Shown here one piece after another: positions 5,877 through 31,603 of a stretch of DNA of 64,000 nt. The notes beneath the pieces are model-generated. The model saw only the letters and a list, made by a program, of their open reading frames with translations, was not told the origin of the DNA and made no database searches. The translations under genes were made by a program, and so were the position numbers. The stretch covers positions 930,001 through 994,000 of the forward strand of contig NZ_CP085345.1 of the NCBI RefSeq assembly GCF_020618415.1, written 5' to 3'. How positions within the stretch are numbered: position 1 is the first letter of the stretch; every line of letters starts with the position of its first letter. This DNA is from Cupriavidus sp. MP-37 (GTDB lineage Bacteria; Pseudomonadota; Gammaproteobacteria; Burkholderiales; Burkholderiaceae).

Positions 5877-5885
5877 GGGAACTCC

Positions 5886-10191: not shown

Positions 10192-10226
10192 GTTTTATTA
10201 ATGAAACGCAGGTTCAAAAAAGGAAC
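10192..10226 (-). promoter_or_regulatory. Tandem operator, Mo-hydroxylase operon (IclR A/B candidate)
   Basis: Proximal palindrome GTTTTATTAATGAAAC (10192-10207), 4-bp spacer, then distal GTTCAAAAAAGGAAC (10212-10226). The same 16-4-15 arrangement, in the same orientation relative to the gene, occurs at 30329-30363 and in weaker form at 31374-31408. It lies in the 323-bp region between the Bug gene and the divergent marR. Proposed as the binding site of the paralogous IclR regulators encoded at 3713 and 26621. Confidence 0.7.
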
Positions 10227-10246
10227 ATAACCATCGTAGGTAATGC

Positions 10247-10264
10247 AAGTTGACAACTCAACTT
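10247..10264. promoter_or_regulatory. MarR-type palindrome in the divergent region
   Basis: AAGTTG-ACAACT-CAACTT is a perfect 6-bp inverted repeat with a 6-bp spacer, the size of typical MarR operators. It contains TTGACA (10250-10255), which could be a -35 element for the plus-strand marR gene starting at 10420. Autoregulation of marR is inferred. Confidence 0.5.
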
Positions 10265-10419
10265 ACGTTATGCACCTATTGACTGCTGTTGTTTTTTGAG
10301 GGTTTATTTTTGCTCATCGGAATCGCCACACAGTGGCGGCAACGGCAAGCGCCTGTGAGACAATCTGCCCCGCCCACCGGCCACGCATCCTGGCCGGCAG
10401 ACCAGACCAAGAGGAACGC

Positions 10420-10947
10420 ATGTCCCGTGATGCCGCGCCCGCCAACGGCAAGCCAGCGCCCGCCACTGCCCCCGCCGCCAACACCAGTCCCTGGACCGAC
10501 CTCGACGAGGACGGCAGCGGCCTGACTGTCGACAACTTCCTGACCACGATGCTGAGCCAGCTGGTGACCGCGCTGCGCAGCACGGTCACCAAGCCTTATG
10601 CGGAACAGTTCGGCCTGACCGTGCCCGAATGGCGCATCCTGGCGCTGCTGGCCCATGCGCGCGCGTTGCCGTTTGCCGAGCTGGTGACGCAGTCGACCTC
10701 GGACAAGGCGCTGGTCAGCCGCACCCTGCGGCTGCTGGAAGACCGCGGGCTGGTGCAGCTGACCTCCGCCGGCAATACGCCGCGCAAGAAGCTGATGTGC
10801 GCCATCACCGAGGCCGGCACCGCGCTGCACGACCAGGTCATGCCGCTGGCGCGGCGCGGACAGGCCGAGGTGATCCGGCAGCTGTCGCCGCAGGAGCGCG
10901 AGGCGGTGTACCAGGGGCTGCGCAAGCTGTTGCGCGCGCAGGCATAA
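10420..10947 (+). CDS. MarR-family transcriptional regulator
   Basis: 175-residue winged-helix regulator. Residues 1 to about 30 are a low-complexity Ala/Pro-rich tail; the core runs from the dimerisation helix (VDNFLTTMLSQLVTALR) through TVPEWRILALL and the recognition helix region STSDKALVSRTLRLLEDRGLV to the wing. ATG 10420 is preceded by AGAGGA at good spacing. It is transcribed away from the Bug/Mo-hydroxylase operon, and a palindrome sits between them. It probably senses an aromatic or other anionic ligand of the adjacent pathway and may co-regulate it with the IclR proteins. A hairpin with a short T stretch follows the stop. Confidence 0.85.
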   Translation: MSRDAAPANGKPAPATAPAANTSPWTDLDEDGSGLTVDNFLTTMLSQLVTALRSTVTKPYAEQFGLTVPEWRILALLAHARALPFAELVTQSTSDKALVSRTLRLLEDRGLVQLTSAGNTPRKKLMCAITEAGTALHDQVMPLARRGQAEVIRQLSPQEREAVYQGLRKLLRAQA

Positions 10948-10960
10948 GGAAAACACGGCC

Positions 10961-10986
10961 GCGCCGGTTGCCTGCCGGCGCAGTTT
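10961..10986 (+). terminator. Hairpin terminator after marR
   Basis: GCGCCGG (10961-10967) pairs with CCGGCGC (10975-10981) across a 7-nt loop, followed by AGTTTC. The T stretch is short, so termination may be partial. It sits between marR and the next plus-strand operon. Confidence 0.5.
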
Positions 10987-11094
10987 CATCCCGCAAAACT
11001 TCTCCGCGCCAGGGAATGACGGCGCTTTCCACATCGCCTATAACGTCTGCTACCGGTTTCACCTGACGAAAGCCGGACCCAGGAGACGAACGGC

Positions 11095-13187: not shown

Positions 13188-13188
13188 C

Positions 13189-14693: not shown

Positions 14694-14761
14694 CTGCCCG
14701 CGGGCGCCAGCCGGCGCGCCCGTTCCCATCCCGACCGGCAATCCCAACCCGGAGAATTCCC

Positions 14762-15748: not shown

Positions 15749-15797
15749 GCCCCACGCACCCGCCACGCACCAGCCACCCATACGCCACGCCCCCGCC

Positions 15798-17909: not shown

Positions 17910-17935
17910 CGGCAGCGGCATGGGCACGTGCCCGT

Positions 17936-19396
17936 TCAGACCTCCAGCTCCTCCAGCACCCGCCCCTTGGTCTCGATGCCAAGGCAGTGCACGGTGATGG
18001 CCGCCAGCGCCGGCACCACCGACAGTGCGAAGAAGGCGAAGCTCAGGTCGCCGCTGCCGATGGTGCTGGCGATCAACCCCGGCGCAAAGATCGCCGCCAG
18101 CTTCAGCCAGGCCCCGCCGAGGCCGCAGCCCATGGCCCGCACGCTGGTCGGATACAGCTCCGGCGTGTAGACATAGGCAGTGATGAAGCCGCTGGCGAGG
18201 AAGCCCATCGCCAGCGCGCAGAAGGTCGCGACCACGTACACGCTGGCGGCGTGGAACACGCCCGCCAGCACCAGCGACAGCGCGCACAGCAGGAACGACA
18301 CGTTGATCACCGGCTTGCGCCCGACCTTGTCGACGATCATGGCGCAGACCAGCGAGCCCACCACGCCCAGCACCGACGCCGCGGCGGCCAGGTTCAGCGC
18401 CAGCTGCAGCGGCGCGTGGTAGACGGTCTTGTAGACCGTCGGCAGCCAGGTCGAGAGCCCGTACTGGATAAATCCGCAGGTGGCCCACAGCATCCATACC
18501 GCCAGCGTGCGGCCCAGATAGGCCTTGCTGACGAGGTCGCGCAAACGGCGGCGCGGATGGTTGGCCATGCGTTCGTAGGCACTGGCGTCGCCCGGCGGCG
18601 GCAGCGGCGTGCGGGCGCGCGCCTCGAACGCGCGCAGCGCGGCGTCGGCCTCTTCCAGCCGGCCCTTTTCGGCCAGCCAGCGCGGCGATTCCGGAATCAC
18701 GCGGCGCAGGATGAAGAACAGCACCAACGGCACGCCGCCGATGAAGTACATCACTTCCCAGCCGTAGTGGGGCACCAGCCAGGCGCCAATGCCGTTGGAC
18801 ACCATCAGCCCGATCGGGAACACCACTTCGTACAGCAGCACGAAGCGCCCGCGGCCATGGGCGCGCGTGACTTCGTTGATATAGGTCGCCGCCACCGGCA
18901 GCTCTCCGCCCAGGCCCAGGCCCTGCACGATGCGCAGCAGCGCGAAGATCTCGAACGACGGGGCAAAGCCGCACGCCAGGCTCATCAGGCCGATGATGCC
19001 CGCGCTCCAGCCGATCGAGCGCAAGCGTCCGAAGCGCTCGGCCAGCCCCGGGAACAGCAGTGCCCCGACCAGCTGGCCCACCGACGGCGCCGCGATCAGG
19101 AAGCCGATCTGCCCCGGCGTGAGCGACCACTGCGCGATCAGCAGCGGCAGCGTGGCGGCGATGGCAATCACGTCGAAGCCATCGAAGAAGGTGGCCAGGC
19201 CGATCAGCAGCCGGGCCCGCACATGCATGGCATTGCCGGGCATGCGCTCGATGCGGGCGACGATATTGCCGCGCGTGAGCGGGCCGGTGCGCGCGGTGGT
19301 CGCGCTGTGGCCGGCGCTGTCGGCCGTGGTCACGATGCCTGCGGTGGCGGCCACCGGTGCGCCGGGGGACGCTGCGTCTTGTCTCTGGGTTAGCAC
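17936..19396 (-). CDS. MFS transporter, aromatic-acid/niacin-like
   Basis: About 486 residues with twelve predicted membrane helices. The signature GQLVGALLFPGLAERFGRLR between TM2 and TM3 and the loop ESPRWLAEKGRLEEA are typical of the sugar-porter/AAHS side of MFS; DKVGRKPVIN follows TM8. Such proteins import aromatic acids or niacin-like compounds. The start is uncertain: GTG 19396 is chosen because the longer frame to 19522 would translate a REP palindrome into LTPGPSPARGRG, a known artefact. ATGs near 19250 are alternatives. It may be the last gene of the Rieske cluster, 196 bp after the reductase. Confidence 0.82.
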   Translation of the reverse strand: MLTQRQDAASPGAPVAATAGIVTTADSAGHSATTARTGPLTRGNIVARIERMPGNAMHVRARLLIGLATFFDGFDVIAIAATLPLLIAQWSLTPGQIGFLIAAPSVGQLVGALLFPGLAERFGRLRSIGWSAGIIGLMSLACGFAPSFEIFALLRIVQGLGLGGELPVAATYINEVTRAHGRGRFVLLYEVVFPIGLMVSNGIGAWLVPHYGWEVMYFIGGVPLVLFFILRRVIPESPRWLAEKGRLEEADAALRAFEARARTPLPPPGDASAYERMANHPRRRLRDLVSKAYLGRTLAVWMLWATCGFIQYGLSTWLPTVYKTVYHAPLQLALNLAAAASVLGVVGSLVCAMIVDKVGRKPVINVSFLLCALSLVLAGVFHAASVYVVATFCALAMGFLASGFITAYVYTPELYPTSVRAMGCGLGGAWLKLAAIFAPGLIASTIGSGDLSFAFFALSVVPALAAITVHCLGIETKGRVLEELEV

Positions 19397-19443
19397 GGGA
19401 CTTTTTGGGTTGGGTCTTGGGCGTCCCGCCTGGCGGGAGCTTT

Positions 19444-19560
19444 GCTCCCCTCTCCCGCGCGCGGGAGAGGGGCCGGGGGTGAGGGCCGGCGGTTCTGGGG
19501 GCGTGGCGCCTTGCCAGACCACCCCTCACCCTGCCCTCTCCCCGTGAGGGGAGAGGGGAA
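19444..19560. repeat. REP/BIME-like palindromic pair
   Basis: CTCTCCCGC-GC-GCGGGAGAG followed by a GGGGGTGAGGG arm (19444-19488), and an inverted partner with CCCTCACC...CTCTCCCCGTGAGGGGAGAG (19521-19560). The same family recurs at 23136-23269, 43596-44252, 45690-45793 and 61294-61343. It occupies the gap between the reductase and MFS genes. Confidence 0.85.
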
Positions 19561-19592
19561 CACCGTCGGCATGCGATGGCGCTACGGCAGGA

Positions 19593-20549
19593 TTACAAAT
19601 CCAGCACCAGCTTGCTGCCCTTGCACCCCGACACGCACACCATCATGGTCTTGTTGCCGGCGCGCTCGCTGTTGCTCAGCACGCTGTCGCGGTGGTCGGG
19701 GCAGCCTTCCAGCACGGCGGTCTCGCACGAGCCGCATACGCCTTCGCGGCAGCTGTACTCGACCTCCACGCCGGAGTCGAGCAGCGCGTCCAGCAGCGAC
19801 TTGCCCGACGGCACCTTCACCAGCGAACCGGTGCGCGACAGCTGCACCACGTACTCGCCTTCCTGCACCGCTTCGGTCGACGGGTCGGCGGCGAAGCGCT
19901 CGATATGGACGTTGGGATAGGCATGCGCCGCGCATGCGGCCTCGAACGCGTTCAGCATCGGGCCGGGGCCGCAGCAGTAGAAGTGCGTCTGCGCGTCCTG
20001 CCCGGCCAGCATGGCCTGCAGGTCGGGCGGCGCGCCGGCTTCGTCGTCGAAGTGGAAGCGCACGGTGTCGCCGTACGCCGACAGCTGTTCGACGAACGCC
20101 GCCTCGGCGCGCGAGCGCGCGCAGTAGATCAGCGTGAACGAGCGGCCCAGCTCGGCCAGCCGGCGCGCCATGCAGACGATCGGGGTGACGCCGATGCCGC
20201 CGGCGACCAGCACGGTGTGCGCGGCGCTCTCGTCCAGTTCGAAGTTGTTGCGCGGCGCGCCCACCGTCAGCGTGGCGCCGACGCGCAGCTGCTCGTGCAC
20301 GTAGCGCGAGCCGCCGCGGCTGCCGCGGTCCAGCAGCACGCCCACGGTGTAGCGCTCGCGCGCTTCCGGCGCGCCGCACAGCGAGTAGCTGCGCACCAGG
20401 CCGTTGCCCAGGTGCAGGTCGATATGGGCGCCCGGGCTGTACGCGGGCAGGGTCTTCCCTTCGGGGTCTTGCAGTTCGATGCTGACCACGCCGCGCGCTT
20501 CGTAGCGCATGGCCTGGACCCGCAGGGTCAGGGACTGGTGGGCACTCAT
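19593..20549 (-). CDS. Phthalate-dioxygenase-type reductase (FMN, NAD, C-terminal [2Fe-2S])
   Basis: 318-residue class IA oxygenase reductase. Domains in order: FMN-binding barrel with RSYSL (53-57), NAD domain with GGIGVTP (117-123) and CCGPGPM (192-198), and a C-terminal plant-type ferredoxin with C267, C272, C275 and C305. It transfers electrons from NADH to the Rieske oxygenase encoded at 28852 in the same strand cluster. The ATG at 20549 is 27 bp after the VOC gene. All ligands are intact, and it is the only candidate reductase in the cluster. Confidence 0.93.
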   Translation of the reverse strand: MSAHQSLTLRVQAMRYEARGVVSIELQDPEGKTLPAYSPGAHIDLHLGNGLVRSYSLCGAPEARERYTVGVLLDRGSRGGSRYVHEQLRVGATLTVGAPRNNFELDESAAHTVLVAGGIGVTPIVCMARRLAELGRSFTLIYCARSRAEAAFVEQLSAYGDTVRFHFDDEAGAPPDLQAMLAGQDAQTHFYCCGPGPMLNAFEAACAAHAYPNVHIERFAADPSTEAVQEGEYVVQLSRTGSLVKVPSGKSLLDALLDSGVEVEYSCREGVCGSCETAVLEGCPDHRDSVLSNSERAGNKTMMVCVSGCKGSKLVLDL

Positions 20550-20576
20550 TGCTGCTTCCTTCTGTTGCGCTGCTGC

Positions 20577-21551
20577 TTACCGCTTCTCGGTCAGGAACTT
20601 GCCTGCCGGGCCACCGGCGTTCTTCTGGCGGCGGGTGTTGCCGTCGATGCCGCCCTCGATCGCCCATTCGGCGAACATGGTCGGGCCCGGCTCGAAGGCG
20701 CGCGGCTCCCAGTGTTCGTCGAGCTGGTCTTCGTCGGCGTAGTACTCGATCAGGCCGCCGGCCGGGTTCTTGAAGTACCAGAAGTAGGCCGAGGAGATCG
20801 GGTGCCGGCCCGGGCCGAGCTGCGTGTCCCAGCCCTTGCGCGACACGTGCATGCCGCCGCCAAAGACCTCGTGGATGTCGCGCACGGTGAAGGCGACGTG
20901 GTTCAGGCCGCTCTTCGGTTCCGGCAGCTGCAACAGGAACAGGTCGTGGTGGCCGCCGTCGGCGGTGCAGCGCAGGAACGCGCCGCGGTCGGGGTAGCGA
21001 TCGGACGGCACGAAGCCGAACTTCTCCACGTAGAACTGCTCGGTCGCCTTGACGTCCTTGACGAAGAACACCACGTGGCCGACTTCGATCGGCGTGGCGT
21101 GGTCGTAGATCGGGCTGCGCTGGTTCATGCGCGGCTTGTCGTTCCACGTGTTCATCAGCGCGCATTCGATCTGCACGTCGTGCTTGCGCGTGACCTGGAA
21201 GCGCACCGCCAGGCCGTTCGGATCGGTGCAGCCGAGGCGCAGTGCGTCGCCTTCGCCCTGCGTCACAAAGCCGGGCGCATCCGCGATCGCCTCAGCAAGA
21301 TGGTCGAGCGAGGCCTGCGACTCGACCCCCCACACCACTTCGCGCAGCGTCGGGCCGGCCTCGATCGCCGGCGGCAGCGACGGGTCGTCGATGCGGCGCA
21401 CCAGCACGCGGCAGCCGTTCAGCGTTTCGAAGTCCAGGCCCTGCGCGTCGTCGCGCTTGATGGCCAGGCCCCAGTCGGTGAAGAAACCGCGGCAGGCGTC
21501 CAAGTCATCCGCGCCGTACACGATCTCGTCGATTCCCAATACCTTGATCAT
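20577..21551 (-). CDS. VOC-family extradiol dioxygenase-like protein
   Basis: 324 residues with two vicinal-oxygen-chelate modules, the layout of type-I extradiol ring-cleavage dioxygenases. The second module keeps the 2-His-1-Glu metal site: H159 (EVGHVVFF), H218 (LNHVAFT) and E269 (LIEYYAD). It therefore probably cleaves a catechol-like ring formed by the Rieske oxygenase and an SDR of this cluster. ATG 21551 (MIKVLGI) is chosen; the open frame continues 63 codons upstream into the aldehyde dehydrogenase gene without family similarity. Spacing to both neighbours is 23-27 bp. Confidence 0.88.
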   Translation of the reverse strand: MIKVLGIDEIVYGADDLDACRGFFTDWGLAIKRDDAQGLDFETLNGCRVLVRRIDDPSLPPAIEAGPTLREVVWGVESQASLDHLAEAIADAPGFVTQGEGDALRLGCTDPNGLAVRFQVTRKHDVQIECALMNTWNDKPRMNQRSPIYDHATPIEVGHVVFFVKDVKATEQFYVEKFGFVPSDRYPDRGAFLRCTADGGHHDLFLLQLPEPKSGLNHVAFTVRDIHEVFGGGMHVSRKGWDTQLGPGRHPISSAYFWYFKNPAGGLIEYYADEDQLDEHWEPRAFEPGPTMFAEWAIEGGIDGNTRRQKNAGGPAGKFLTEKR

Positions 21552-21574
21552 GGCTTCTCTCCAGCTTGCCGGGT

Positions 21575-23053
21575 TCAGTGGTTGGCCCACGGCAGCGGTT
21601 GTTCGTTCAGGCCCCAGTACACGCTTTTCTGCTCCATGTACTGCAGGATGCCCAGCCGTCCCTTCTCGCGGCCCAGGCCGCTGTCGCGCCAGCCGCCGAA
21701 CGGCGTCGCGATCGAGAACTGCTTGTAGGTGTTGATCCATACGTTGCCGGCCTGCACCGCGCGGGCCACGCGCCAGGCGCGCTTGTAGTCGCGCGTCCAG
21801 ATGCCGGCGGCGAGCGCGTAGACGCTGTCGTTGGCCTGCGCGATCAGGTCGTCCTCGTCGTCGAATGGGATTGCCACCAGCACCGGCCCGAAGATTTCCT
21901 CCTGGCAGATGCGGGCGTGGTTATCCAGCCCTTCGATGATGGTCGGCGTGTAGAAATAGCCGTGGGGCAGCCCGGCCACGTCGGGACGCACGCCGCCGGT
22001 GCGCAGCTGCCCGCCTTCGTCCACGCCCGCCGCGACGTACGATTCGATCGAATCGCGATGGCGGTCGGTGATCAGCGGGCCCATCTGGGTGCGCTCGTCG
22101 GCCGGGTCGCCCACGCGCAGCTGCGCGGCGCCATGCGCCAGCCGGTCGATGAAGGCCTCGTACTGCGAGCGCGCCACGAACAGGCGCGAGCCCGCGATGC
22201 AGGATTCGCCCGACGAGCTGAAGATGCCGTACAGCACGCCGTTGACCGCGTGGTCCAGGTCGGCATCGTCGAACACCATGGTCGGCGACTTGCCGCCCAG
22301 CTCCAGCGACACCGGCATCATCTTGTCGGCGGCGATATGGGCGATGTGCTTGCCGGTGGTGGTGCCGCCGGTGAACGACACGCGGCGCACCAGCGGGTGC
22401 TTCGTAATGGCGTCGCCGATCACCGAGCCCTTGCCGGGCAGCACGCTGATCAGGCCCCTGGGCACCCCGGCCTCTTCGCAGATGCGCGCCAGTTCCAGCG
22501 CCATCAGCGGCGTGACCTCGGCGGGCTTGACCACCACGGCGTTGCCGGCGGCGAGCGCGGGCGCCATCTTCTGCGCCTCGCTGGCGATCGGCGAGTTCCA
22601 CGGCGTGATCGCCGCAACCACGCCCATCGGCTCGTAGACGCTCATGGTGAGGCAGTCGCCGCGCTGCGGCGTGATGGTCTCTTCCAGCGTTTCGCAGGCG
22701 GCGGCAAAGAACTGGAAGGTGCCGGCGGCGCTGGCAACCAGCGCGCGCGTTTCGCTGATGGGCTTGCCGTTGTCGAGGCGCTGGCGCTGGGCCAGCTGCT
22801 CGCCCTTGGCGCGGATCAGCTCGGCCACGCGGTACAGCACGGCGGCGCGTTCGTGGGGCTTGCGTTGGGCCCAGCCGCTGGTGAGGAAGGCGTGGTGGGC
22901 GCCCTGCACGGCTTCTTCCACGTCAGCCAGGCTGGCGGCGTTCAGTTCGGCGACGACTTCGCCGGTCGCTGGATAGCGCGTGCCGTAGCGGTCGCCGGTC
23001 CCCAGGCGCCATTCGCCTGCGATGCAGATGGGGAGTACTTCTTGTGGGTTCAT
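21575..23053 (-). CDS. NAD(P)-dependent aldehyde dehydrogenase
   Basis: 492 residues of the ALDH superfamily, similar to hydroxymuconic-semialdehyde/betaine-aldehyde types. Active-site residues are present: N153 (TPWNSP), E251 (LELGGKSP) and C285 (SSGESCIAG). The cofactor loop FTGGTTTGK (227-235) is intact. ATG 23053 is preferred to an upstream in-frame TTG at 23083. In this operon it most likely oxidises a semialdehyde or aldehyde from ring cleavage or from the ThDP enzyme. A 237-bp gap containing REP palindromes separates it from the upstream aspartate dehydrogenase gene. Confidence 0.92.
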   Translation of the reverse strand: MNPQEVLPICIAGEWRLGTGDRYGTRYPATGEVVAELNAASLADVEEAVQGAHHAFLTSGWAQRKPHERAAVLYRVAELIRAKGEQLAQRQRLDNGKPISETRALVASAAGTFQFFAAACETLEETITPQRGDCLTMSVYEPMGVVAAITPWNSPIASEAQKMAPALAAGNAVVVKPAEVTPLMALELARICEEAGVPRGLISVLPGKGSVIGDAITKHPLVRRVSFTGGTTTGKHIAHIAADKMMPVSLELGGKSPTMVFDDADLDHAVNGVLYGIFSSSGESCIAGSRLFVARSQYEAFIDRLAHGAAQLRVGDPADERTQMGPLITDRHRDSIESYVAAGVDEGGQLRTGGVRPDVAGLPHGYFYTPTIIEGLDNHARICQEEIFGPVLVAIPFDDEDDLIAQANDSVYALAAGIWTRDYKRAWRVARAVQAGNVWINTYKQFSIATPFGGWRDSGLGREKGRLGILQYMEQKSVYWGLNEQPLPWANH

Positions 23054-23135
23054 GTCGTTGCCTGCTGTGTCTGTCGTGGCCAAGGCGCTGCTGCGGTCTC
23101 TTGCTGCGACGGCGTTGTCAAATGTTGCTGCGTAA

Positions 23136-23269
23136 CTCCCCTCTCCCGCTTGCGGGAGAGGGGTGGGGGTGAGGGCGGGCGCTTCTCACGGAGTGCAGCG
23201 CCTCGTCCTTGGCACACACCGGCCCTCACCCCCGGCCCCTCTCCCGCTCGCGGGAGAGGGGAGCAAACC
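23136..23269. repeat. REP/BIME-like palindromic pair
   Basis: ACTCCCCTCTCCCGCTTGCG and its continuation GGAGAGGGGTGGGGGTGAGG (23136-23180) face an inverted copy, CCCTCACCCCCGGCCCCTCT then CCCGCTCGCGGGAGAGGGGA (23221-23269). It lies within an otherwise compact operon, between the aspartate dehydrogenase and aldehyde dehydrogenase genes, and could stabilise or attenuate the mRNA there. Confidence 0.85.
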
Positions 23270-23290
23270 GGCAGCATGGATTGGCGCCCT

Positions 23291-24091
23291 TCAAATCGAT
23301 ACCGCGTGCGCCCTATTCCCCAGCGCCCGCACCACGCTGAACACCGTCAGCGCCGAGGTCTTCGGGTTCGCCGCCAGCGGCTTGCCGCGCATGGTCAGCT
23401 CGAACCCCCCGAACGCCCCGCGCGCTTCCACGTGATGCACGTTCTCCACCGCATGCGGATCGGCCAGCAGCTTCACCGAAGTGCGGTCCAGCCCCAGGCC
23501 GGCCAGCGACACGGTGGCGGCGACGTTGGCGTTCTTCGGGTACAGGCGCGCGGCGTCGCGCGCCGTGCCTTCGAAGATCACCGTGGTCTCGGTCAGCGCG
23601 TCGAGGTCGAACAACTGCTCGGCCGGCGTGCCGGTCCATGCCCGCGCCGGCTTGCGGCCGGTGTAGATGACTTCGTCGAGCCCGCCGACACGCGCCGCCG
23701 CCAGCGCGTCGATGGCGCCGATCGCGCCGGACAGCAACTGCACCTGCGTGCCGCCGCTGCGCGCCGCGGCTTCCAGGCGCTCGGCCATGCCGGGCTCGGA
23801 CAGCGCGCCCACCGACACCACCATGCACGGGATGCCGCGTTCCAGCGCCGGCACGATGTGCTCCTCCAGCGCATGGTGGCCGGCGCACTCGACCAGCAGG
23901 TCGGGCCGCTGGTCGTCCAGGTGCGTGGCGACGCGGGCGCGCGGCGCCAGCGCGGAGACCGCGCCGCGGGCCTCGTCCATCGTGTGCTCCGGCACGATCA
24001 CCACGTCAAACACTACGTCCGGATCGCTCTTGAGCAATTCCAGCACGCCGCGGCCGATCGCGCCGCAGCCAACCATGGACACATGCAGCAT
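23291..24091 (-). CDS. nadX: L-aspartate dehydrogenase (NadX family)
   Basis: 266-residue NAD(P)-dependent dehydrogenase. The Rossmann motif GCGAIG (8-13) opens the protein; YPKNANVAATVSLAG near residues 185-200 is the conserved substrate and catalytic segment of aspartate dehydrogenases, which interconvert L-aspartate with iminosuccinate or oxaloacetate plus ammonia. Family members of this type occur in Cupriavidus. Placement 12 bp after a ThDP enzyme and inside a Rieske/VOC operon suggests a catabolic job, perhaps ammonium release from an amino-acid intermediate, and not NAD biosynthesis. Specificity for aspartate itself is inferred from the family. Confidence 0.85.
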   Translation of the reverse strand: MLHVSMVGCGAIGRGVLELLKSDPDVVFDVVIVPEHTMDEARGAVSALAPRARVATHLDDQRPDLLVECAGHHALEEHIVPALERGIPCMVVSVGALSEPGMAERLEAAARSGGTQVQLLSGAIGAIDALAAARVGGLDEVIYTGRKPARAWTGTPAEQLFDLDALTETTVIFEGTARDAARLYPKNANVAATVSLAGLGLDRTSVKLLADPHAVENVHHVEARGAFGGFELTMRGKPLAANPKTSALTVFSVVRALGNRAHAVSI

Positions 24092-24103
24092 CGCGGGTCT
24101 CCC

Positions 24104-25819
24104 TCAGGCGGTGACAGTGGTTTGTTCGCGCGCCGGCTCTTCGTTGTCCTGGTTCACCGGCGGGCCGGCGAAGATGGTCTTGAAGGAGCCGATCGACAGC
24201 ATGTCGATTTCCAGCAGGAACGGGCCGGACTCGGCCCTGGCCGCGTCGAGCGCGGCGCCGACCTCGGCCAGGTTGCTGACGCGCGCGTGGCGCAGCGACA
24301 GCGACTTCGCCAGCGTGGCGTAATCCGGCGTATGCAGGTCCACATAGTGGCGGCGGCCGCCGTACTGCGCGTCCTGGATGTTCTTGATCACGCCGTAGCC
24401 CTTGTCGTTCATCAGCACGATCACCATGTCGGCGCGCTCCTGCACCGCGGTCGCCAGCTCACCGAGGTTCAGGATAAAGCCGCCGTCGCCGGCCAGCGTG
24501 AAGGTCTTCTTGCCCGAGCCGGTGGCCGCGGCGCCGATCGCGGCGCCGATGCCCATCGCCAGGCCCTGGCCGATGCCGCCGCCCAGCGCATGCACGCCGG
24601 CACGCGAGTCGAAGATGCGCAGCTGGCGGTTGCCCCAGGTGCTGTTCGACACGGTCACGTCGCGCACCCAGTTGAAGTTGCGGCCGACCGCCTCCTGCAA
24701 CGCCTGCACCAGCGCCGAGTACGGGCCCAGGCCGTCGACCAGGCTGTTGACCGCGGTGTCGTGCGCGCGGCGCAGGTCGGCGGCGAAAGCCGGGTCGATC
24801 TGCATGCGCCGCTCGAGCCGGTCGGCCAGCGCGTCCAGCGCCAGCGCGGCGTCGCCGCTGACAAAGTAGTCGCTCATGTAGCAGCGGCCTTCGGCGGCCG
24901 GATCGGCGTCGATGCGCAGCAGCGGGCGCGGCAGCTTCAGCTCGTACTTCAGGGTTTCATTGCCGCGCAGGCGCGAGCCCACCACCAGCATCGCATCGCA
25001 GGTCTGGTAGAAGGCCTCGACCGGCTTGTGCAAGTTGAACGCGCCCAGCGAGCGCGGATCGTCCTCGGGCACGATGCCGCGGCCCTGGGTGCTGGTGACC
25101 ACGCCGAAGCCCAGCTCCAGCAGTCGCTGCACCTGCTTGCTGGCATGGCGCGCGCCGCCGCCCAGCCACAGCAGCGGGCGCCTGGCCTTCACCAGGCGCT
25201 CGGCCAGCGCGTCCAGCGCATGCGCCGACGGCACATGCTGCGGCACCGGCAGCGGCTGCAGGTCCACCGGCATGTCGATCAGCGCGGCCTGGATGTCGAT
25301 GGGGATCTCCACGCTGACCGGGCCGGTCGGCGCCGTCAGCGCGGTCTGCACCGCCAGCTTGATGGTGCTGAGCGCGGTGTCGGCGCTGCGGATGCGGAAC
25401 GCGGTTTTGGACACGGCCTTGAGCATGGTCAGCTGGTCCGGCGCTTCGTGGATGTAGGCCAGGCTCTGGTCCAGGTACGGGGTCTCGATCTGGCCGGTGA
25501 TATGCAGCATCGGCGTGCCGGCGGTCAGCGCTTCGACCATGGCGCCGGCGGCGTTGCCGGCGGCGGTGCCGGTGCTGGTCAGGCACACGCCCAGGCCGCC
25601 GGTGGTGCGGGCATAGGCGTCGGCCATGTTGGTGCCGCCCGCTTCGCCGCGCGCCGGCACGAAGCGGATCTTGCCGCGCTCGCCCATGGCGTCGAGGATC
25701 GGCATGTTGTGGATCGAGATCACGCCAAAGGCGGCCTTGACGCCGCACTGCTCGAGAAACGCCGTGATGGCGCAGCCGACCGTGACCTGCTGTTGTTCGT
25801 ACGGTTGTTGATTAGGCAT
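24104..25819 (-). CDS. ThDP-dependent enzyme, acetolactate-synthase superfamily
   Basis: 571 residues with the three-domain POX/ALS layout. The catalytic Glu lies in VPARGEAGGTNMADAYAR near residue 50; the ThDP-Mg motif is GDGGFILNLGELATAVQ, closing with the Asn of VLMND. No FAD- or regulatory-subunit-specific features are evident and no ilvN-like gene follows, so it is a 2-oxoacid decarboxylase or lyase of catabolic type and not biosynthetic acetolactate synthase. ATG 25819 overlaps the SDR gene upstream by 8 bp. In context it may decarboxylate a 2-oxo acid to an aldehyde that the downstream aldehyde dehydrogenase oxidises. Confidence 0.87.
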   Translation of the reverse strand: MPNQQPYEQQQVTVGCAITAFLEQCGVKAAFGVISIHNMPILDAMGERGKIRFVPARGEAGGTNMADAYARTTGGLGVCLTSTGTAAGNAAGAMVEALTAGTPMLHITGQIETPYLDQSLAYIHEAPDQLTMLKAVSKTAFRIRSADTALSTIKLAVQTALTAPTGPVSVEIPIDIQAALIDMPVDLQPLPVPQHVPSAHALDALAERLVKARRPLLWLGGGARHASKQVQRLLELGFGVVTSTQGRGIVPEDDPRSLGAFNLHKPVEAFYQTCDAMLVVGSRLRGNETLKYELKLPRPLLRIDADPAAEGRCYMSDYFVSGDAALALDALADRLERRMQIDPAFAADLRRAHDTAVNSLVDGLGPYSALVQALQEAVGRNFNWVRDVTVSNSTWGNRQLRIFDSRAGVHALGGGIGQGLAMGIGAAIGAAATGSGKKTFTLAGDGGFILNLGELATAVQERADMVIVLMNDKGYGVIKNIQDAQYGGRRHYVDLHTPDYATLAKSLSLRHARVSNLAEVGAALDAARAESGPFLLEIDMLSIGSFKTIFAGPPVNQDNEEPAREQTTVTA

Positions 25820-26609
25820 GACGGGAGTGTCCTCCGGAGATATCGATATGGCTGCCCGTGGTGTACGAAGACAACGGCGAGGCAAGGAACAGGATGGCGC
25901 GGGCTGCCTCGACGGGCAGGCCCAGGCGGCCAAGGGGAATGTGCTTCTGCCGGGCCAGGCGCGCGGTCCACGCGGCCCAGTCCAGGTGGCGGTCTTCTTC
26001 GGGGCGGGCGTCGAAGCGGCGGCGCCACTGGCCCGACTCGACCAGCCCGATCAGGATGCCGTTGACGCGCACGCCCTTGGGCGCGAACTCGGTCGCCATC
26101 GAGCGCACCAGGTTGAGCACGCCGGCGCGCGCGGCGGAGGTTGCCACCATGTGCGGCTCGGGCTGCTGCGCCAGCAGCGAGTTGACGCAGACGATGGCGC
26201 CCTGCCCTGACTTTTCGAGCTGCGGCAGGAACGCGCGCGTCGGGTGGATCACCGAGAAGAACTTGAGCTGCAGCTCGTCCATCCAGGCCGCGTCCTCGGT
26301 ATTGGCGAAGGTGGACACGCGGCCCTGGCCGGCGTTGTTGACCAGCATGTCGACGTTGCCCAGCGTGGCCTGCACCTCGGTGGCAAAGGCGGCGACCTGC
26401 TCCGGCCTGAGCACGTCGCAGGGGGCGGCATAAAGCCGGCACCCGGGGAATTGCTCGCGCAGCTGCGCTTCGGCGCTGCGCAGGCGGGCTTGGTCGCGGC
26501 CGCACAGGGCGACGGCGGCGCCCGCCTCGAGCAGCAGTTCGACGGTCGCCAGCCCGATGCCGGAGGACCCGCCGGTAACGACGGCAACCTTGCCGTCGAG
26601 ATCAATCAT
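25812..26609 (-). CDS. SDR-fold protein with substituted YxxxK catalytic pair
   Basis: 265 residues of the classical short-chain dehydrogenase fold. The cofactor motif TGGSSGIG (12-19) and NNAG (91-94) are intact, and Ser144 of the triad is present (VNSLLA). The catalytic Tyr and Lys positions read T157 and R161 in the stretch MVATSAARAG, so the usual proton-relay pair is missing. ATG 26609 is chosen because AGGA lies 8 bp upstream; ATG 26615 is too close to it. The C-terminus (SYTTGSHIDISGGHS) is normal. It may bind cofactor without classical reductase activity or use another mechanism. Confidence 0.85.
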   Translation of the reverse strand: MIDLDGKVAVVTGGSSGIGLATVELLLEAGAAVALCGRDQARLRSAEAQLREQFPGCRLYAAPCDVLRPEQVAAFATEVQATLGNVDMLVNNAGQGRVSTFANTEDAAWMDELQLKFFSVIHPTRAFLPQLEKSGQGAIVCVNSLLAQQPEPHMVATSAARAGVLNLVRSMATEFAPKGVRVNGILIGLVESGQWRRRFDARPEEDRHLDWAAWTARLARQKHIPLGRLGLPVEAARAILFLASPLSSYTTGSHIDISGGHSRHA

Positions 26610-26620
26610 GGACATTGTCC

Positions 26621-27472
26621 TCACTCCCGATACAGATTCACCACCTTGCCGGCGCTGTGCAGCGACGGCCGGTAGTCGAGCAGGCGCGACAGCTCGCCCG
26701 CGCTATCCCTGACTTTCTCCACCATCGCGTCCAGCTGCTCGGGATCGATATGCGCGGCGGGGATGGTCGCGCCCAGCGCTGCCACCACCTTGCCGGTGCG
26801 GTCGCGCACCGGCGCCGCGATGGTCGAGATGCTCGATTCGAAAAAGCCTTCCTGCAGCACGTAGCCGCGCTCGCGGTCGCGCTGGACGATGGCGAACAGC
26901 GCATCGGCCGTGCGCGGCGTGCTGTCGGAGAACACTTCGAGCTGCGCCTCCGGATACAGCGCGCGCAATTCCGCCAGCGACAGGTCTTCCAGCAGCACGC
27001 GCCCCAGCACCGTGGCATGCGCCGGCAGGCGCGTGCCGACATTGACCGAGCTGGCGAACGGCCGCGGCGACACCGCCTTGGCCACGTAGACGATCGAACG
27101 GCCGTCGCGCACCACCAGGTTGGTCGGGTAGCCGATCTCGTCGCGCAGCCGCTCCAGCAGCGGGCGGCCCAGCTCGGTCAGCTCCAGCGACGCCAGGTAC
27201 TCGAAGCCGAGCCGCAGCACCGCCATGCCCAGCCGGAAATCGCGGCCGCCGTCGGCGCGCTCGACGAAGCCCAGCATTTCCAGCGTCGCCAGCAGGCGGA
27301 ACACGGTGGAGCGCGGCACCTTCAGGCGGCGCGCCAGTTCCGCGGCCGACATGGTGCGGTCCTTGTTGCTGAACTCGCCGAGCAGGCGCAGGCCGCGCTC
27401 CAGCCCCGGGACGATGTACTTGTCCGGGGTTTCGTTGGCGGCGGGCGTCGTCGGGATGGCGTGGGTGCTCAT
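26621..27472 (-). CDS. IclR-family regulator B (paralogue of 3713-4564)
   Basis: 283 residues. The DNA-binding segment ARRLKVPRSTVFRLLATLEM is identical to that of regulator A, and long blocks of the effector domain (VNVGTRLPAHATVLGRVLL, STIAAPVRDR) are shared, so both probably read the same operator and similar effectors. It sits in the middle of the Rieske operon, 32 bp after the cupin gene and 11 bp before the SDR gene, so it would be induced with the pathway it controls. Paralogy plus shared operators suggests cross-regulation between the Mo-hydroxylase and Rieske operons. Confidence 0.92.
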   Translation of the reverse strand: MSTHAIPTTPAANETPDKYIVPGLERGLRLLGEFSNKDRTMSAAELARRLKVPRSTVFRLLATLEMLGFVERADGGRDFRLGMAVLRLGFEYLASLELTELGRPLLERLRDEIGYPTNLVVRDGRSIVYVAKAVSPRPFASSVNVGTRLPAHATVLGRVLLEDLSLAELRALYPEAQLEVFSDSTPRTADALFAIVQRDRERGYVLQEGFFESSISTIAAPVRDRTGKVVAALGATIPAAHIDPEQLDAMVEKVRDSAGELSRLLDYRPSLHSAGKVVNLYRE

Positions 27473-27504
27473 ACGTCAGTGCGTGCGGTCGGGCCGATGG
27501 CGCC

Positions 27505-28041
27505 TCAGCGCTTGATCTTCGCCAGCGGGTGCTCGGGCGGGTAGGTCGGCGTGATCGGCTTCTTGGCGCCGAGCATCACGCACATCAGGACGTCCTCGTC
27601 GCCGATGTTGATTTCCTCGCGGTACACGCCCGGCGGCACCGACACCAGGTCGCGCTCGGTCAGGATGGTCTCGAAGCGCTCGCCGTCCTTTTCCAGGATC
27701 AGCTTGACCTTGCCGCGCAGGATGAAGAACACCTCTTCCACGTCGGTGTGCAGATGCGACGGGCCTTCATGGCCGGCCGGAATGACCATGGTGGAAAAAG
27801 TGAAGTGCTCGCTCGGCACGGTGTTGGTGTCGGCGGCCACGCCGGTGCCGCCGGTGCCCAGGTAGCGCATCTGCGCGCGGCGGTACTTGGGGTCGTAGTC
27901 GGCCTGGAACTTCAGCGCGTCCCAGTCGTACTTGCGCGTGGCAAAGCGCGCGACGCGGCTTTCCATCCACTGGTCGAACGAGGCGCCCTCCGGCTGGTCC
28001 CAGGAACGCTTGATGTTTTGCTGTTGGGAAAGATCGCTCAT
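27505..28041 (-). CDS. Single-domain cupin protein
   Basis: 178 residues with a C-terminal cupin barrel. Motif 1 supplies H96, H98 and E103 in GPSHLHTDVEEVFFILRG; the second motif (PPGVYREEINIG) lacks the usual third His, so metal binding may use three ligands or be weakened. The N-terminal 70 residues (WDQPEGASFDQWMESR...) are specific to proteins found near aromatic oxygenases. It could be an isomerase, decarboxylase or oxygen-activating step in the pathway. ATG 28041 (MSDLSQQ) gives the whole protein; the frame upstream overlaps the neighbouring SDR gene. Confidence 0.82.
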   Translation of the reverse strand: MSDLSQQQNIKRSWDQPEGASFDQWMESRVARFATRKYDWDALKFQADYDPKYRRAQMRYLGTGGTGVAADTNTVPSEHFTFSTMVIPAGHEGPSHLHTDVEEVFFILRGKVKLILEKDGERFETILTERDLVSVPPGVYREEINIGDEDVLMCVMLGAKKPITPTYPPEHPLAKIKR

Positions 28042-28085
28042 TTGGATTCCTTGTGCTTGGATGTGGCTATCGGTAGATCGGTGGA

Positions 28086-28859
28086 TCAATGCATGACAAA
28101 GCCGCCGTTGACCGCCAGGGTCTGGCCGGTGACGAAACGGGCAAGGTCGGACAGGGCGAACAGCACCGCGCCGCAGACATCGTCGGGCAGCTGCTCGCGC
28201 GGGATCGCGCGCTGCTCGCGGTAGAGGTCGTGCCGGTGCTGGGGCACGTATTCGGTCGCCTCGACCAGCGTCAGGCCCGGTGCCACCGCGTTCACCGTGA
28301 TCTGGTCCTTGCCGAGTTCGCGCGCCAGCGAACGGGTCATGCCGATGATGGCGCTCTTGCTGGCGACGTAGGCCAGCAGGTTGGGCGCGCCCCATAGCGG
28401 CGTGTCCGAGGCCAGGTTGACCACCGCGCCGCGGCCGCTGGCACGCAGCGCCGGCAGGCAGGCCGTGGTCATCAGCCAGGTGCCGCGCACGTTGACGTTC
28501 ATCACGCGGTCCCAGGTGGCGATGTCGATGGCGCCTGCGTCGCGGCCGCCCGAGTCGGTCACGGCGGCGTTGTTGACCAGGCCGTCGAGGCCGCCCAGGG
28601 CCTTCACCGCGGCGTCGGCGCAGGCCTGCACCGAGGCCGGATCCGACAGGTCCAGCGTGACCGGCACCACCTTCAGGCCGTGGGCGCGCAATGCATCGGC
28701 TTCCTGCTGCAGGCGCTCGGCCAGGATGTCGGCCATGGCCACGGCGGCGCCGGCTTCGGCCAGCGACCTGGCGAAGGCCAGGCCCAGGCCGCGCGCGGCA
28801 CCGGTGACCAGCACCTTGCGGCCGGCCAGCAGCGTGTTGTGCTCGATGGCCTCAGGCAT
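28086..28859 (-). CDS. SDR oxidoreductase, probable dihydrodiol/alcohol dehydrogenase
   Basis: 257-residue classical SDR with all key residues: TGAARGLG (19-26), NNAA (96-99), catalytic S151, Y164 and K168. It overlaps the Rieske oxygenase gene by 8 bp, so the two are translationally coupled. The simplest role is NAD-dependent rearomatisation of the cis-dihydrodiol made by the Rieske enzyme, giving the catechol for the VOC dioxygenase. A reductive role on a side-chain ketone is an alternative. Confidence 0.87.
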   Translation of the reverse strand: MPEAIEHNTLLAGRKVLVTGAARGLGLAFARSLAEAGAAVAMADILAERLQQEADALRAHGLKVVPVTLDLSDPASVQACADAAVKALGGLDGLVNNAAVTDSGGRDAGAIDIATWDRVMNVNVRGTWLMTTACLPALRASGRGAVVNLASDTPLWGAPNLLAYVASKSAIIGMTRSLARELGKDQITVNAVAPGLTLVEATEYVPQHRHDLYREQRAIPREQLPDDVCGAVLFALSDLARFVTGQTLAVNGGFVMH

Positions 28860-29922
28860 GGCTGGCGGCTCCCGAGGCTTGCGCGGGCTTCAGCATGGCC
28901 ACCGGCTCGTCGGCGACTTCCTGCTCGGCGCGGCGCTTCAGCAGCCGGCGCACGCGCGTGATGCCGGCATCGTGCTGGTACAGCATCTCGTGGTCGCGCG
29001 CGTTCGGCGCCATCATTTCCAGCACCACGCGGTCCTGTTCCAGCACGTCCCAGTGCAGCTGCTCCAGGCGGTTGCGATACAGGAAGCGCCACACATCGCG
29101 CTCCCAGCCCTGCACGTGGCGGGTGCGCCAGAAGAACACCATGCAGTGGTCCTCATCCACCGGCGTGGCCATGCCGACGATGCCGAACGGGCCGCCGGGG
29201 CCGACCTTGGCGCGGTACGGGATGGCCAGGCGCAGCCACAACGTGCCGGTCTCGCCGAACTCGACCCAGTCGAAGTTGACACCGCGCTGGCCGGTCTTCT
29301 CGAACACCAGCCCGTGCTCGGTCTCGCGGATCTGCATCACGGCGGACTTTTCGCCGGACGCCATCGAGTGCGACACCGCGTGCAGGTAGGCGCCGTGCAT
29401 CGGGTCCATAACGTTGTCGATGGCGTAGCGGTAGTTGCAGTCCCAGTGCGCCACACACAGGAAGTGGCTGTGCTCGTCGCTGACCAGTTCTTCCGGCAGG
29501 CGCAGTTCGTCGGGGCTGCCCTCGCCCTGCGGGGCCTGGTCGCCGAACCACAGGAAGATCGCGCCGGCCTGCTCCTGCACCGGGTAGCTGCGCACGCAGG
29601 TGCGGCCTTCCAGCGGGCAGCTTTCCACCGCCGGCACGCTCTTGACCTGGCCGTCGCCGCCGACTTCGACGCCGTGGTACCAGCAGGCGACGCGGTCGCC
29701 CAGGTTCCAGCCCATCGACAGGCGCGCGCCGCGGTGCGGGCAGCGGTCTTCCAGCGCGTGAACCTGGCCGGCGCCGTCGCGCCACAGCACGATGTTCTGG
29801 CTCAGGCGGGTGATGCCGATGGGGGCGCGCGATACCGCCCACGAGGCGGCGACGGGGTACCAGTAGTTGCGCAGGCCGGTGTTCAGGCGGGCTTCGGCGC
29901 GGGCTTGCTTGTTCGATTCCAT
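28852..29922 (-). CDS. Rieske oxygenase alpha subunit (phthalate-dioxygenase-like)
   Basis: 356 residues. The N-terminal Rieske domain has C61-x-H63 and C80-x2-H83 for the [2Fe-2S] cluster; the catalytic domain has N170-x2-D173-x2-H176-x4-H181 for the mononuclear iron and bridging Asp. No beta-subunit gene is present, fitting the alpha-only phthalate/vanillate-type group that pairs with an FMN/[2Fe-2S] reductase such as the one at 19593. It would dihydroxylate or O/N-demethylate an aromatic acid. ATG 29922 (MESNKQAR) lies 22 bp after the small upstream gene. Confidence 0.93.
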   Translation of the reverse strand: MESNKQARAEARLNTGLRNYWYPVAASWAVSRAPIGITRLSQNIVLWRDGAGQVHALEDRCPHRGARLSMGWNLGDRVACWYHGVEVGGDGQVKSVPAVESCPLEGRTCVRSYPVQEQAGAIFLWFGDQAPQGEGSPDELRLPEELVSDEHSHFLCVAHWDCNYRYAIDNVMDPMHGAYLHAVSHSMASGEKSAVMQIRETEHGLVFEKTGQRGVNFDWVEFGETGTLWLRLAIPYRAKVGPGGPFGIVGMATPVDEDHCMVFFWRTRHVQGWERDVWRFLYRNRLEQLHWDVLEQDRVVLEMMAPNARDHEMLYQHDAGITRVRRLLKRRAEQEVADEPVAMLKPAQASGAASHA

Positions 29923-29944
29923 GTTGTTCTCGCTATCGACCGGT

Positions 29945-30250
29945 TCAGGCGCCCAGGCGGCGCATTTCGGAGAGGAAGCGCGCTTCGGTCCAGGGCTGGC
30001 CGTCGACGCCGAGGAAGCCGGCGTCATTGAAGGCGCGCACGATGTCCTGCGGGTTCTGCGCGCCGCCTTCGAAGGCAGCTTCGAGGGCGTCGCCGAGCGC
30101 GTTCTCGTACGCGCTCGGTGCGGCGGCGCGGGTCTGCCAGACGATGTTGGCGACCTTGCCGGGTTGCTCGATATGGCCCTTGCCCGCCACGTTGTTCGGC
30201 GCCGGACGCTCCCAGGGCACCAGGTTCGGGTTGTACGAGAGGCTTTCCAT
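29945..30250 (-). CDS. Small recombinase-like HTH-domain protein
   Basis: 101 residues, acidic, with no signal peptide. The C-terminal half (PQDIVRAFNDAGFLGVDGQPWTEARF...) looks like the helix-turn-helix domain of serine recombinases without any catalytic domain. Such small proteins recur at the head of Rieske oxygenase operons; their role is not known, and DNA binding or a pathway-accessory function are both possible. ATG 30250 is chosen because GGAG lies 9 bp upstream; ATG 30265 lacks a ribosome-binding site. It is the first gene of the long cluster and starts 79 bp downstream of the operator. Confidence 0.75.
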   Translation of the reverse strand: MESLSYNPNLVPWERPAPNNVAGKGHIEQPGKVANIVWQTRAAAPSAYENALGDALEAAFEGGAQNPQDIVRAFNDAGFLGVDGQPWTEARFLSEMRRLGA

Positions 30251-30328
30251 TGCGCTTGGCTCCATGTCTTGCAGCAGGGGGACCGTGTTCCGCGTGCGCG
30301 GTCGACCGTCTTCCGGTTGCCGCGCTAC

Positions 30329-30363
30329 GTTTTACTAATGAAACACTGGTTTAGATATTGAAC
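30329..30363 (-). promoter_or_regulatory. Tandem operator, Rieske operon (IclR A/B candidate)
   Basis: GTTTTACTAATGAAAC (30329-30344) differs from the 10192 site by one base. A second palindrome, GTTTAGATATTGAAC (30349-30363), follows after exactly 4 bp as at 10212. It sits 79 bp upstream of the first gene of the Rieske operon on the minus strand. Confidence 0.72.
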
Positions 30364-30501
30364 ACAGGTACGACTATAGACAACGACGGCGCAAAAATTG
30401 ACTGGGGTTAACCCGCGCTCGGGCAGATTGCCCGGTACGTGCGGCGCAAACGGGGCACCGCCGATGCGGCGATCGCGGCGGCAGAACGCCGCCGACGGGA
30501 A

Positions 30502-31380
30502 TCACTGGCCGGCAGGCAGGGCGGAACGGATCAGCCGCGCGGTGGCGGCGGCCTGGTCGATATAGCAGGCATGCCCGGCGTCGGGGATCAGCGCGAACGG
30601 CAGGCCGAAGCGCTCGGCCAGCGCCGCGCAGGCGGGCGGCGTGGTGACGAGGTCGCGGCCGCCGCAGGCGATCTGTGTCGGCAGATGCGCCGGACGTCGC
30701 GCCAGGTAGGCGTCGATGTCGTCGCCGCACAGCATGGCCACGGCCTGGCGGTAGCCGTCCGGGTTCAGCCGCCGCATGTTCCAGCGCACCCAGGCCTGCG
30801 CGCCCGCATCGGCCGCTTCACCGAGCAGCCGCGCCGGCCCGCGTTGCGCCAGCCCGTCGATACCCAGCGTCTCCAGCGCTTCCAGCCGCTGGCTGGCGAC
30901 CGCGCTGGCCTGCGCTTCCTTGCCGGCCGCGCCGTAGCCTTGCGCCACGCTCAGCAGCAGCATACGGGCCGGCAGCGCGCGCGCCGAGGCGGCATAGGCG
31001 GCCGCCATCAGCGCTCCCAGCGAATGCCCGACCAGTAATGCCGGCTGCACCTCGAGCACCGCCAGCAGGCCCTCGAGCCGGCGCGCATAGTCCGCGGCCA
31101 GCGGCCGCGCCTGCGGCAACGGAGAGGAATCGCCGTAGCCAGGTGCGTCCCAGGCGATCACGCGCGCATGCGCGGCCAGCAGGCTGGCGCAAGGCAGCCA
31201 CGACGCCGCCCCGGAGCTGATGCCGTGCAGCACCACCACCACCGGCCCGGTCCCGCCACCGCAGCGGTAGGCCACGCGCGCGCCCTCCACTTGCGCCACG
31301 CGCTGGGCAAACCCGCTGTCGAGGGCCTCCAGCAAGCCGTGGTCCGGTTCGGCCGGCGTCTGGGGCTGATTTTGTTTCAT
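30502..31380 (-). CDS. Alpha/beta-fold hydrolase
   Basis: 292 residues. The catalytic triad is Ser120 in GHSLG, Asp243 (GGRDLV) and His270 (DAGHACY); the oxyanion region is HGISSG (52-57). This resembles meta-cleavage-product or ester/enol-lactone hydrolases, which act after extradiol ring cleavage, so it may complete the VOC-initiated pathway. No signal peptide, so cytoplasmic. The ATG at 31380 lies inside a copy of the 16-bp operator, so either the message is leaderless or nearly so, or the true start is further in; a GTG about 27 residues downstream is the main alternative. Confidence 0.83.
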   Translation of the reverse strand: MKQNQPQTPAEPDHGLLEALDSGFAQRVAQVEGARVAYRCGGGTGPVVVVLHGISSGAASWLPCASLLAAHARVIAWDAPGYGDSSPLPQARPLAADYARRLEGLLAVLEVQPALLVGHSLGALMAAAYAASARALPARMLLLSVAQGYGAAGKEAQASAVASQRLEALETLGIDGLAQRGPARLLGEAADAGAQAWVRWNMRRLNPDGYRQAVAMLCGDDIDAYLARRPAHLPTQIACGGRDLVTTPPACAALAERFGLPFALIPDAGHACYIDQAAATARLIRSALPAGQ

Positions 31381-31408
31381 ATATAAAACTATAGTTGGCA
31401 AATAAAAC
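31374..31408 (-). promoter_or_regulatory. Operator copy over the hydrolase start
   Basis: GTTTCATATATAAAAC (31374-31389) is identical to the porin-side copy at 31588. After 4 bp comes GTTGGCAAATAAAAC (31394-31408), in which only the outer halves keep the palindrome. The spacing (16-4-15) and orientation match the 10192 and 30329 sites. It covers the ATG of the hydrolase gene. Confidence 0.6.
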
Positions 31409-31587
31409 CCTTGAAGCATAGGCGCTGCCGCAGGGCCTCCGGCATCAGGGTTAACGATAGGCCTGCCGGAAACGGCGTCGCGACGCCAGAGCTGGCCATC
31501 CGGGCCGGTCGCTTTAGGGATAACCCTCCTCACATGTTCCGGAAAGTCGCGGCTATATTCTGCTCAACGTTTCTTATGTTGTTTGAC

Positions 31588-31603
31588 GTTTCATATATAA
31601 AAC
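31588..31603 (+). promoter_or_regulatory. Operator copy before the porin gene
   Basis: GTTTCATATATAAAAC, identical to 31374-31389, placed 98 bp before the porin ATG, as far as the 10192 site lies from its gene. TATATA within it could serve as a -10 element with TTCTTA (31571-31576) 17 bp upstream. The distal partner palindrome is poorly kept here (only a left GTTTC half at 31569). Confidence 0.62.

Follow-up and report, generated by a model that had tools for sequence, protein, structure and literature searches.

A 64,000-bp stretch of the genome of Cupriavidus sp. MP-37 (GCF_020618415.1, contig NZ_CP085345.1, positions 930,001 to 994,000; hereafter, the window, from whose first letter unlabeled positions are counted) carries four copies of a 16-bp palindrome in front of a molybdenum (Mo)-hydroxylase operon, a Rieske oxygenase operon, a hydrolase gene, and a porin gene. 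With a probability of roughly 0.8, two paralogous IclR-type proteins, IclR_A and IclR_B, read these sites as the operators of a single catabolic regulon; they would exert autoregulated repression that is lifted by a catabolite. This reading is drawn from sequence comparison and builds on the sites themselves, their layout, their conservation, their co-occurrence with the two regulators, and the identical recognition helices of the latter. Pattern search and conservation defined the operators as follows:

10192..10207, minus strand: operator 1, 16-bp palindrome of the Mo-hydroxylase operon
30329..30344, minus strand: operator 2, 16-bp palindrome of the Rieske operon
31374..31389, minus strand: operator 3, overlapping the hydrolase start codon (31378-31380)
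31588..31603, plus strand: operator 4, 16-bp palindrome of the porin gene

An earlier sequence-only reading of the window had described near-identical inverted repeats at these four places, and all of them were recovered. A pattern search of the 6,114,217-bp, two-contig genome returned four exact copies of the palindrome GTTTYANNNNTRAAAC, all inside the same 21-kb stretch. Allowing one mismatch added 14 genomic sites, every one outside this stretch, and the reversed motif pattern, used as a control, gave 4 genomic sites with up to one mismatch. Within the window, the four sites were the only ones found with up to two mismatches (8 matches, both strands counted); shuffled windows contained a mean of 0.43 matches, and none of 100 shuffles reached 8. 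A loose composite pattern of 35 bp with up to three mismatches recovered the four sites; its other hits were some off-register rows inside the stretch and four weak ones dispersed outside it. The earlier argument that such matches are unlikely to arise by chance is borne out by these counts, and the exact motif is not scattered through the genome at background frequency.

A second, 15-bp palindrome had been reported to follow at a distance of 4 bp at operators 1 and 2 and, in degenerate form, at operator 3. This spacing was confirmed at all three; the fourth site, for which a partner had been overlooked, possesses one as well, at 31569-31583. As had been claimed, the orientation relative to the gene is the same at all four sites. 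Read in the direction of the gene, the common layout is a -10 box, 6 or 9 bp, the 15-bp partner, 4 bp, the 16-mer, and then the gene. The partners, identified by alignment and half-site score, and the -10 boxes are located at:

10212..10226, minus strand: partner of operator 1, 15-bp palindrome
10233..10238, minus strand: -10 box TACGAT of the Mo-hydroxylase promoter (-35 box TTGAGT at 10256-10261, 17-bp spacer)
30349..30363, minus strand: partner of operator 2, 15-bp palindrome
30373..30378, minus strand: -10 box TATAGT of the Rieske promoter
31394..31408, minus strand: partner of operator 3, degenerate
31415..31420, minus strand: -10 box TATGCT of the hydrolase promoter
31554..31559, plus strand: -10 box TATATT of the porin promoter
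31569..31583, plus strand: partner of operator 4, left half-site (GTTTC) only

Scoring the better half of each partner against the half-site GTTYY and summing over the four partners yielded 19 of 20, compared with 11 for the corresponding 15-mers on the opposite flank; shuffling the letters of the partners 20,000 times never gave as high a score. The symmetry of the partners (4, 4, 3, and 0 of 7 pairs) is clear at two sites, degenerate at one, and reduced to a half-site at the porin.

Conservation was assessed in the window and 91 stretches around IclR genes of 47 relatives (1.80 Mb, partly overlapping, so that some sites were counted twice). The following counts allow two mismatches, include the window's own genome, and refer to genomes with the respective gene in the fetched stretches. 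The promoter of the TctC/Mo-hydroxylase operon carried the site in 32 of 32 genomes (exact in 22), that of the Rieske operon in 45 of 46 (exact in 41 of the 45), that of the hydrolase in 44 of 45, and that of the porin in 45 of 45 (exact in 35). The single Rieske miss, G072, results from a stretch that starts at a contig end; the sole hydrolase miss was G082. Another 11 sites, 8 of them exact, stood directly before IclR_A. Two of the genomes are incomplete and in short contigs: G073 (78% complete) and G012 (54%). At a threshold of one mismatch, 180 of 182 sites fell within about 330 bp upstream of the searched genes, and the remaining two are the same site of G009. The proposal that uptake, Mo-hydroxylation, dioxygenation, and hydrolysis belong to one regulon is therefore supported by sites that are conserved at the same promoters.

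Close carriers of the system beyond Cupriavidus, found by a contig scan, were Ralstonia, Herbaspirillum, Collimonas, and one Duganella bin. In the Ralstonia group, an exact site with the 15-4-16 layout and the -10 spacing precedes the Rieske operon at 10 of 10 loci, each in a genome that has just one such IclR protein. Ten more distant loci contained 21 sites with up to four mismatches, compared with a mean of 1.95 (maximum of 5, 20 runs) after first-order shuffling, the search 16-mer having been picked by eye from sites in some of the same loci. Sixteen of these sites were situated at an operon or porin promoter, and the remaining five were elsewhere or ambiguous (L150 4690, L151 5652 and 18997, L157 17356, and L158 5240). 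In 9 of the 10 loci, such GTTCCATATATGGAAC-like sites lay at the promoter of the operon or of the porin; a Caballeronia plasmid stretch (L211) carried them as well.

Alignment of the promoters across relatives revealed that the best -10 hexamer begins 31 bp before the 16-mer in the Mo-hydroxylase, hydrolase, and IclR_A classes and 34 bp before it in the Rieske and porin classes; one of these two offsets thus holds in all five promoter classes. The prevalent hexamers were TACGAT or TACAGT (Mo-hydroxylase), TATGCT or TATAGT (hydrolase), TACAGT or TACATT (IclR_A), TATAGT (Rieske), and TATATT (porin). Good -35 boxes were confined to the promoters of the Mo-hydroxylase operon and IclR_A, with means of 2.9 and 3.8 of 6 matches, respectively. 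The mean information per column was 1.62 to 1.85 bits in the 16-mer and 1.42 to 1.78 bits in the partner. It dropped to 0.29 to 0.73 bits in the downstream flank (+5 to +35) of four classes, with 1.03 bits in the 11-genome IclR_A class, and amounted to 0.70 to 1.30 bits in the far-upstream flank, with the maximum at the Rieske promoter, whose conservation extends into this flank. The information and -10 figures for the hydrolase derive from 41 of 44 promoters, those with the ATG at a fixed position. This ATG lies within the 16-mer itself (GTTTYATAT-ATG-RAAC). The ATG-bearing palindrome was found at 42 of 44 hydrolase loci, and in all 42 it shared an uninterrupted reading frame with the hydrolase. 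G082 (L107) and G079 (L053) did not match the pattern; the G079 site has two mismatches and retains the ATG.

The genes of the candidate regulon are arranged in the window as follows, the Rieske operon being predicted from contiguous same-strand genes:

3713..4564, minus strand: regulator IclR_A, last same-strand gene behind the Mo-hydroxylase genes
4667..9078, minus strand: Mo-hydroxylase genes CoxG, CoxS, CoxM, and CoxL
9098..10096, minus strand: TctC-type binding protein, first gene of the Mo-hydroxylase operon
17936..30265, minus strand: Rieske operon, encoding an HTH_62 protein, Rieske oxygenase, SDR, cupin, IclR_B, SDR, thiamine pyrophosphate (TPP) enzyme, aspartate dehydrogenase, aldehyde dehydrogenase (ALDH), VOC dioxygenase, FNR reductase, and MFS protein
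26621..27472, minus strand: regulator IclR_B, within the Rieske operon
30502..31380, minus strand: alpha/beta hydrolase
31702..32805, plus strand: porin (Porin_4)

The first gene of the Rieske operon (29945-30265) encodes a small protein with a recombinase-like helix-turn-helix (HTH_62) and stays beside the oxygenase in relatives. The relatives in PDB and NCBIfam are too distant to name the substrate of the pathway.

Over 255 residues, IclR_A and IclR_B have 85% identity, and both belong to the IclR family, with above-cut-off Pfam matches to HTH_IclR (E values of 1.9e-15 and 3.7e-16) and IclR_C (5.3e-36 and 5.1e-35). Their recognition helix, PRSTVFRLL, did not vary among the proteins aligned: 40 A, 46 B, 10 from the Ralstonia group, and 9 from Herbaspirillum, Collimonas, or Duganella. 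In the more distant relatives with GTTCCATATATGGAAC or close sites, the helix reads PRTTVFRLL or PRTTTFRLL, and this parallel shift of helix and site is suggestive of co-evolution, although no proof of it. Such regulators were present in 48 of 60 genus genomes, comprising 44 with exactly two copies, three with one, and one with a whole copy and two fragments. None of the 12 genomes lacking these IclR genes contained the site cluster at zero mismatches; their exact motif matches were single sites or an unrelated pair offset by 33 bp. Taken together, the comparative evidence favors the IclR proteins encoded at 3713 and 26621 as the likely readers of the operators.

How the two proteins might act can be proposed from the promoter anatomy. 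Given the position of the -10 box, transcription is expected to start at the beginning of the partner, and the operator would then cover about +1 to +36, so that a bound IclR protein would block promoter clearance; at the hydrolase gene, it would also cover the start codon. Two palindromes at a fixed short spacing, as in BlcR-like operators, were found at all four sites (15-4-16). BlcR of Agrobacterium binds two inverted repeats as a tetramer. With about two helical turns from center to center, palindromes 4 bp apart would likewise fit two IclR dimers or a tetramer. Each IclR gene resides inside the operon that its own operator should control, which points to negative autoregulation. From how IclR proteins work, we infer that a pathway compound would release them from the DNA and thereby switch on the porin, the Mo-hydroxylase, the Rieske operon, and the hydrolase together.

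Several observations weigh against this account. The porin partner has no symmetric pair, and the hydrolase 16-mer is exact in only 5 of 44 genomes (one mismatch in 31, two in 8). The -35 boxes of the Rieske, hydrolase, and porin promoters are poor (2.2 or less of 6 matches), and an added activator may therefore be needed there. Genomes within one genus are not independent of each other, and the distance windows of the promoter classes were fixed after a first look. In addition, the A/B gene tree, built from 113 of 124 sequences (those too short, lacking the core motif, or duplicated were dropped), is weakly resolved and therefore settles neither a single duplication nor the timing of the copies.

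Weak -35 boxes at three promoters would also suit a scenario in which the paralogs activate instead of repressing, as some IclR proteins do, and the palindromes are activator sites. The location of the sites downstream of the -10 box, at a constant distance in every class, would be unusual for an activator and makes this scenario quite unlikely. It is unlikely, too, that one paralog alone reads the operators while the other has a different role. Near-identical copies could diverge, no operator occurs at the IclR_A locus of G034, G065, and G081, and a single IclR protein suffices in G082. However, the recognition helix is the same in both proteins, and in the aligned core, the positions that distinguish A from B at an 80% consensus are limited to residue 259 and the end of the B-type C-terminal tail (282-283). 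Because almost no fixed residue differs, there was no support for A and B being clearly distinct sensors; dosage or separate autoregulation of two operons is the simpler explanation for keeping two copies.

Other regulators encoded nearby were judged very improbable as readers of the motif. A MarR protein, encoded at 10420 and divergent from operator 1, adjoins this operator in most genomes and occurs in 47 of the 60 genus genomes, and binding to palindromes of this length is common in the MarR family. Among operator-bearing genomes, however, it had no match at 1e-30 in G082 and was reduced to a half-length 65% match in G081; conversely, it was present in G022, G031, and G060, which have neither the IclR pair nor the operator cluster. 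In G010, G013, G075, and G078, it was unlinked. The chances of two further IclR proteins, at 2857 and 11095, are just as slim. Although they share family and neighborhood with IclR_A and IclR_B, their recognition helices differ. IclR 11095 (at 1e-60) was detected in all 12 genomes without the cluster but in only 34 of 48 with it. The case of IclR 2857 is less clean, as it accompanied the pair in 40 of 48 genomes and was absent from all 12 without the pair; even so, no match at 1e-60 was obtained in seven operator-bearing genomes that are at least 91% complete (G006, G007, G024, G034, G065, G066, and G080) or in the 54%-complete G012, and in several more genomes it is on another contig. Co-occurrence thus disfavors the MarR protein and both of these IclR proteins.

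Returning to the operators as sites of IclR_A and IclR_B, the genes behind operator 1 were found to vary. An operator was present at the IclR_A locus of 43 genomes, 32 of which have the order TctC-CoxLMSG-IclR_A, whereas in 11 it is followed by IclR_A, a TctC-like gene, and an unrelated Mo-hydroxylase of the IorAB type. Loss of the Mo-hydroxylase operon in these 11 genomes was considered and rejected, since IorAB takes its place. Genome-wide, close copies of CoxL (76 to 100% identity) were found in 33 of 60 genomes and close copies of IorB (79 to 100%) in 11 of 60, plus a partial copy at a contig end in G012; the two never occurred together in any of the 60, and the 12 genomes without these IclR proteins had neither. 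The IorB match of G011 contains one internal stop, and three CoxL genomes (G017, G023, and G068) also have a 61 to 62% IorB relative at another place. G034, G065, and G081, without an operator at the IclR_A locus, had neither Mo-hydroxylase at these thresholds. In G082, which has one IclR protein, an operator with a CTATAGT -10 box directly precedes a non-orthologous IorAB beside the porin (L107 2669-5359), and the hydrolase sits inside the operon. As judged by eye from open reading frame (ORF) translations, the operator stands before an apparent ABC transporter and the core operon in Herbaspirillum (L192 885-3722) and before an MFS-like gene and the core operon in Collimonas (L202 2086-3474); a Rieske gene was not found within either fetched stretch.

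These arrangements lead us to suggest tentatively, at somewhat less than even odds, that the operator serves as a portable address: the IclR-operator pair would be kept across several genera while front-end modules (Mo-hydroxylases, Rieske oxygenase, ABC or MFS transporters, porins, and perhaps a chemoreceptor) are exchanged, with the hydrolase operator doubling as a translation start. The same suggestion includes that CoxLMSG and IorAB perform the same hydroxylation step for one substrate. In Ralstonia soli (L140 3963), a perfect site precedes an ORF resembling a methyl-accepting chemoreceptor, which perhaps brings chemotaxis into the regulon.

Control of aromatic catabolism by IclR proteins through sites near the start site is already known. 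PheR of Sphingobium is an IclR repressor of phenanthrene uptake and catabolism; its footprint of 44 bp spans the start site (+23 to -21), and the authors consider the data consistent with cooperative binding (PMC13273656). The present system resembles it in having an IclR-family protein, here a predicted repressor, at a catabolic operon with a site near the transcription start; it differs in that the available text on PheR gives a GCAACG core and a single regulator and describes no 15-4-16 double palindrome (PMC13273656). BlcR (3mq0), a sequence relative (E value of 3.2e-28), is described in the available part of its source as the IclR-type repressor of the blcABC operon (PMC3907764), and the two IclR-type systems serve different pathways. 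The best NCBIfam match of both proteins, TIGR02431 (PcaR/PcaU/PobR), reached 177.4 and 182 bits, well below the cut-off of 284.75, so membership is not indicated. Aromatic catabolism is shared with that subfamily, but its operator, GTNCG-N5-6-CGNAC as quoted in the available text of PMC13273656, differs from the operator halves found here. The same text quotes GKTYCRYW3-4RYGRAMC as the consensus of IclR group 1; by eye, the outer half-sites of the GTTTCAT...ATGAAAC type are alike, yet an inner spacer of 2 rather than 3 to 4 bp and several GTTTTA halves place our operators outside this class.

New, in contrast, are the specific regulon, the double-palindrome layout at four promoters, a start codon embedded in an operator, and Mo-hydroxylases that replace each other behind the same operator. 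No description of the regulon or pathway was recognized among the papers listed by literature searches (motif, IclR/aspartate dehydrogenase, and Cupriavidus), with subscription papers lying outside the search. For Pseudomonas PAO1 PA3505-PA3511, a possible counterpart, a literature search on these tags gave no regulon description. What emerges for this catabolic pathway is a complete predicted regulon, unique in the genome, with its sites and start points specified and two regulators proposed. If correct, a common reaction is to be expected of the two unrelated Mo-hydroxylases that replace one another under a single operator, which would help to identify the substrate, and the operator-IclR pair could be used as a ready sensor once its ligand is known.

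Two further occurrences were recorded. Pairs of GTTTCA...TGAAAC palindromes offset by 33 bp were located at another locus in five genomes (G001 C1:1549304, G020 C7:89370, G032 C88:162430, G034 C19:9549, and G067 C36:14681); as three of the five (G020, G032, and G067) lack the IclR pair, another regulator is likely to act there. The Caballeronia stretch belongs to plasmid pSBC2-4 of Caballeronia sp. SBC2, which is typed as mobilizable and carries the core cluster, two IclR genes, and a divergent porin.

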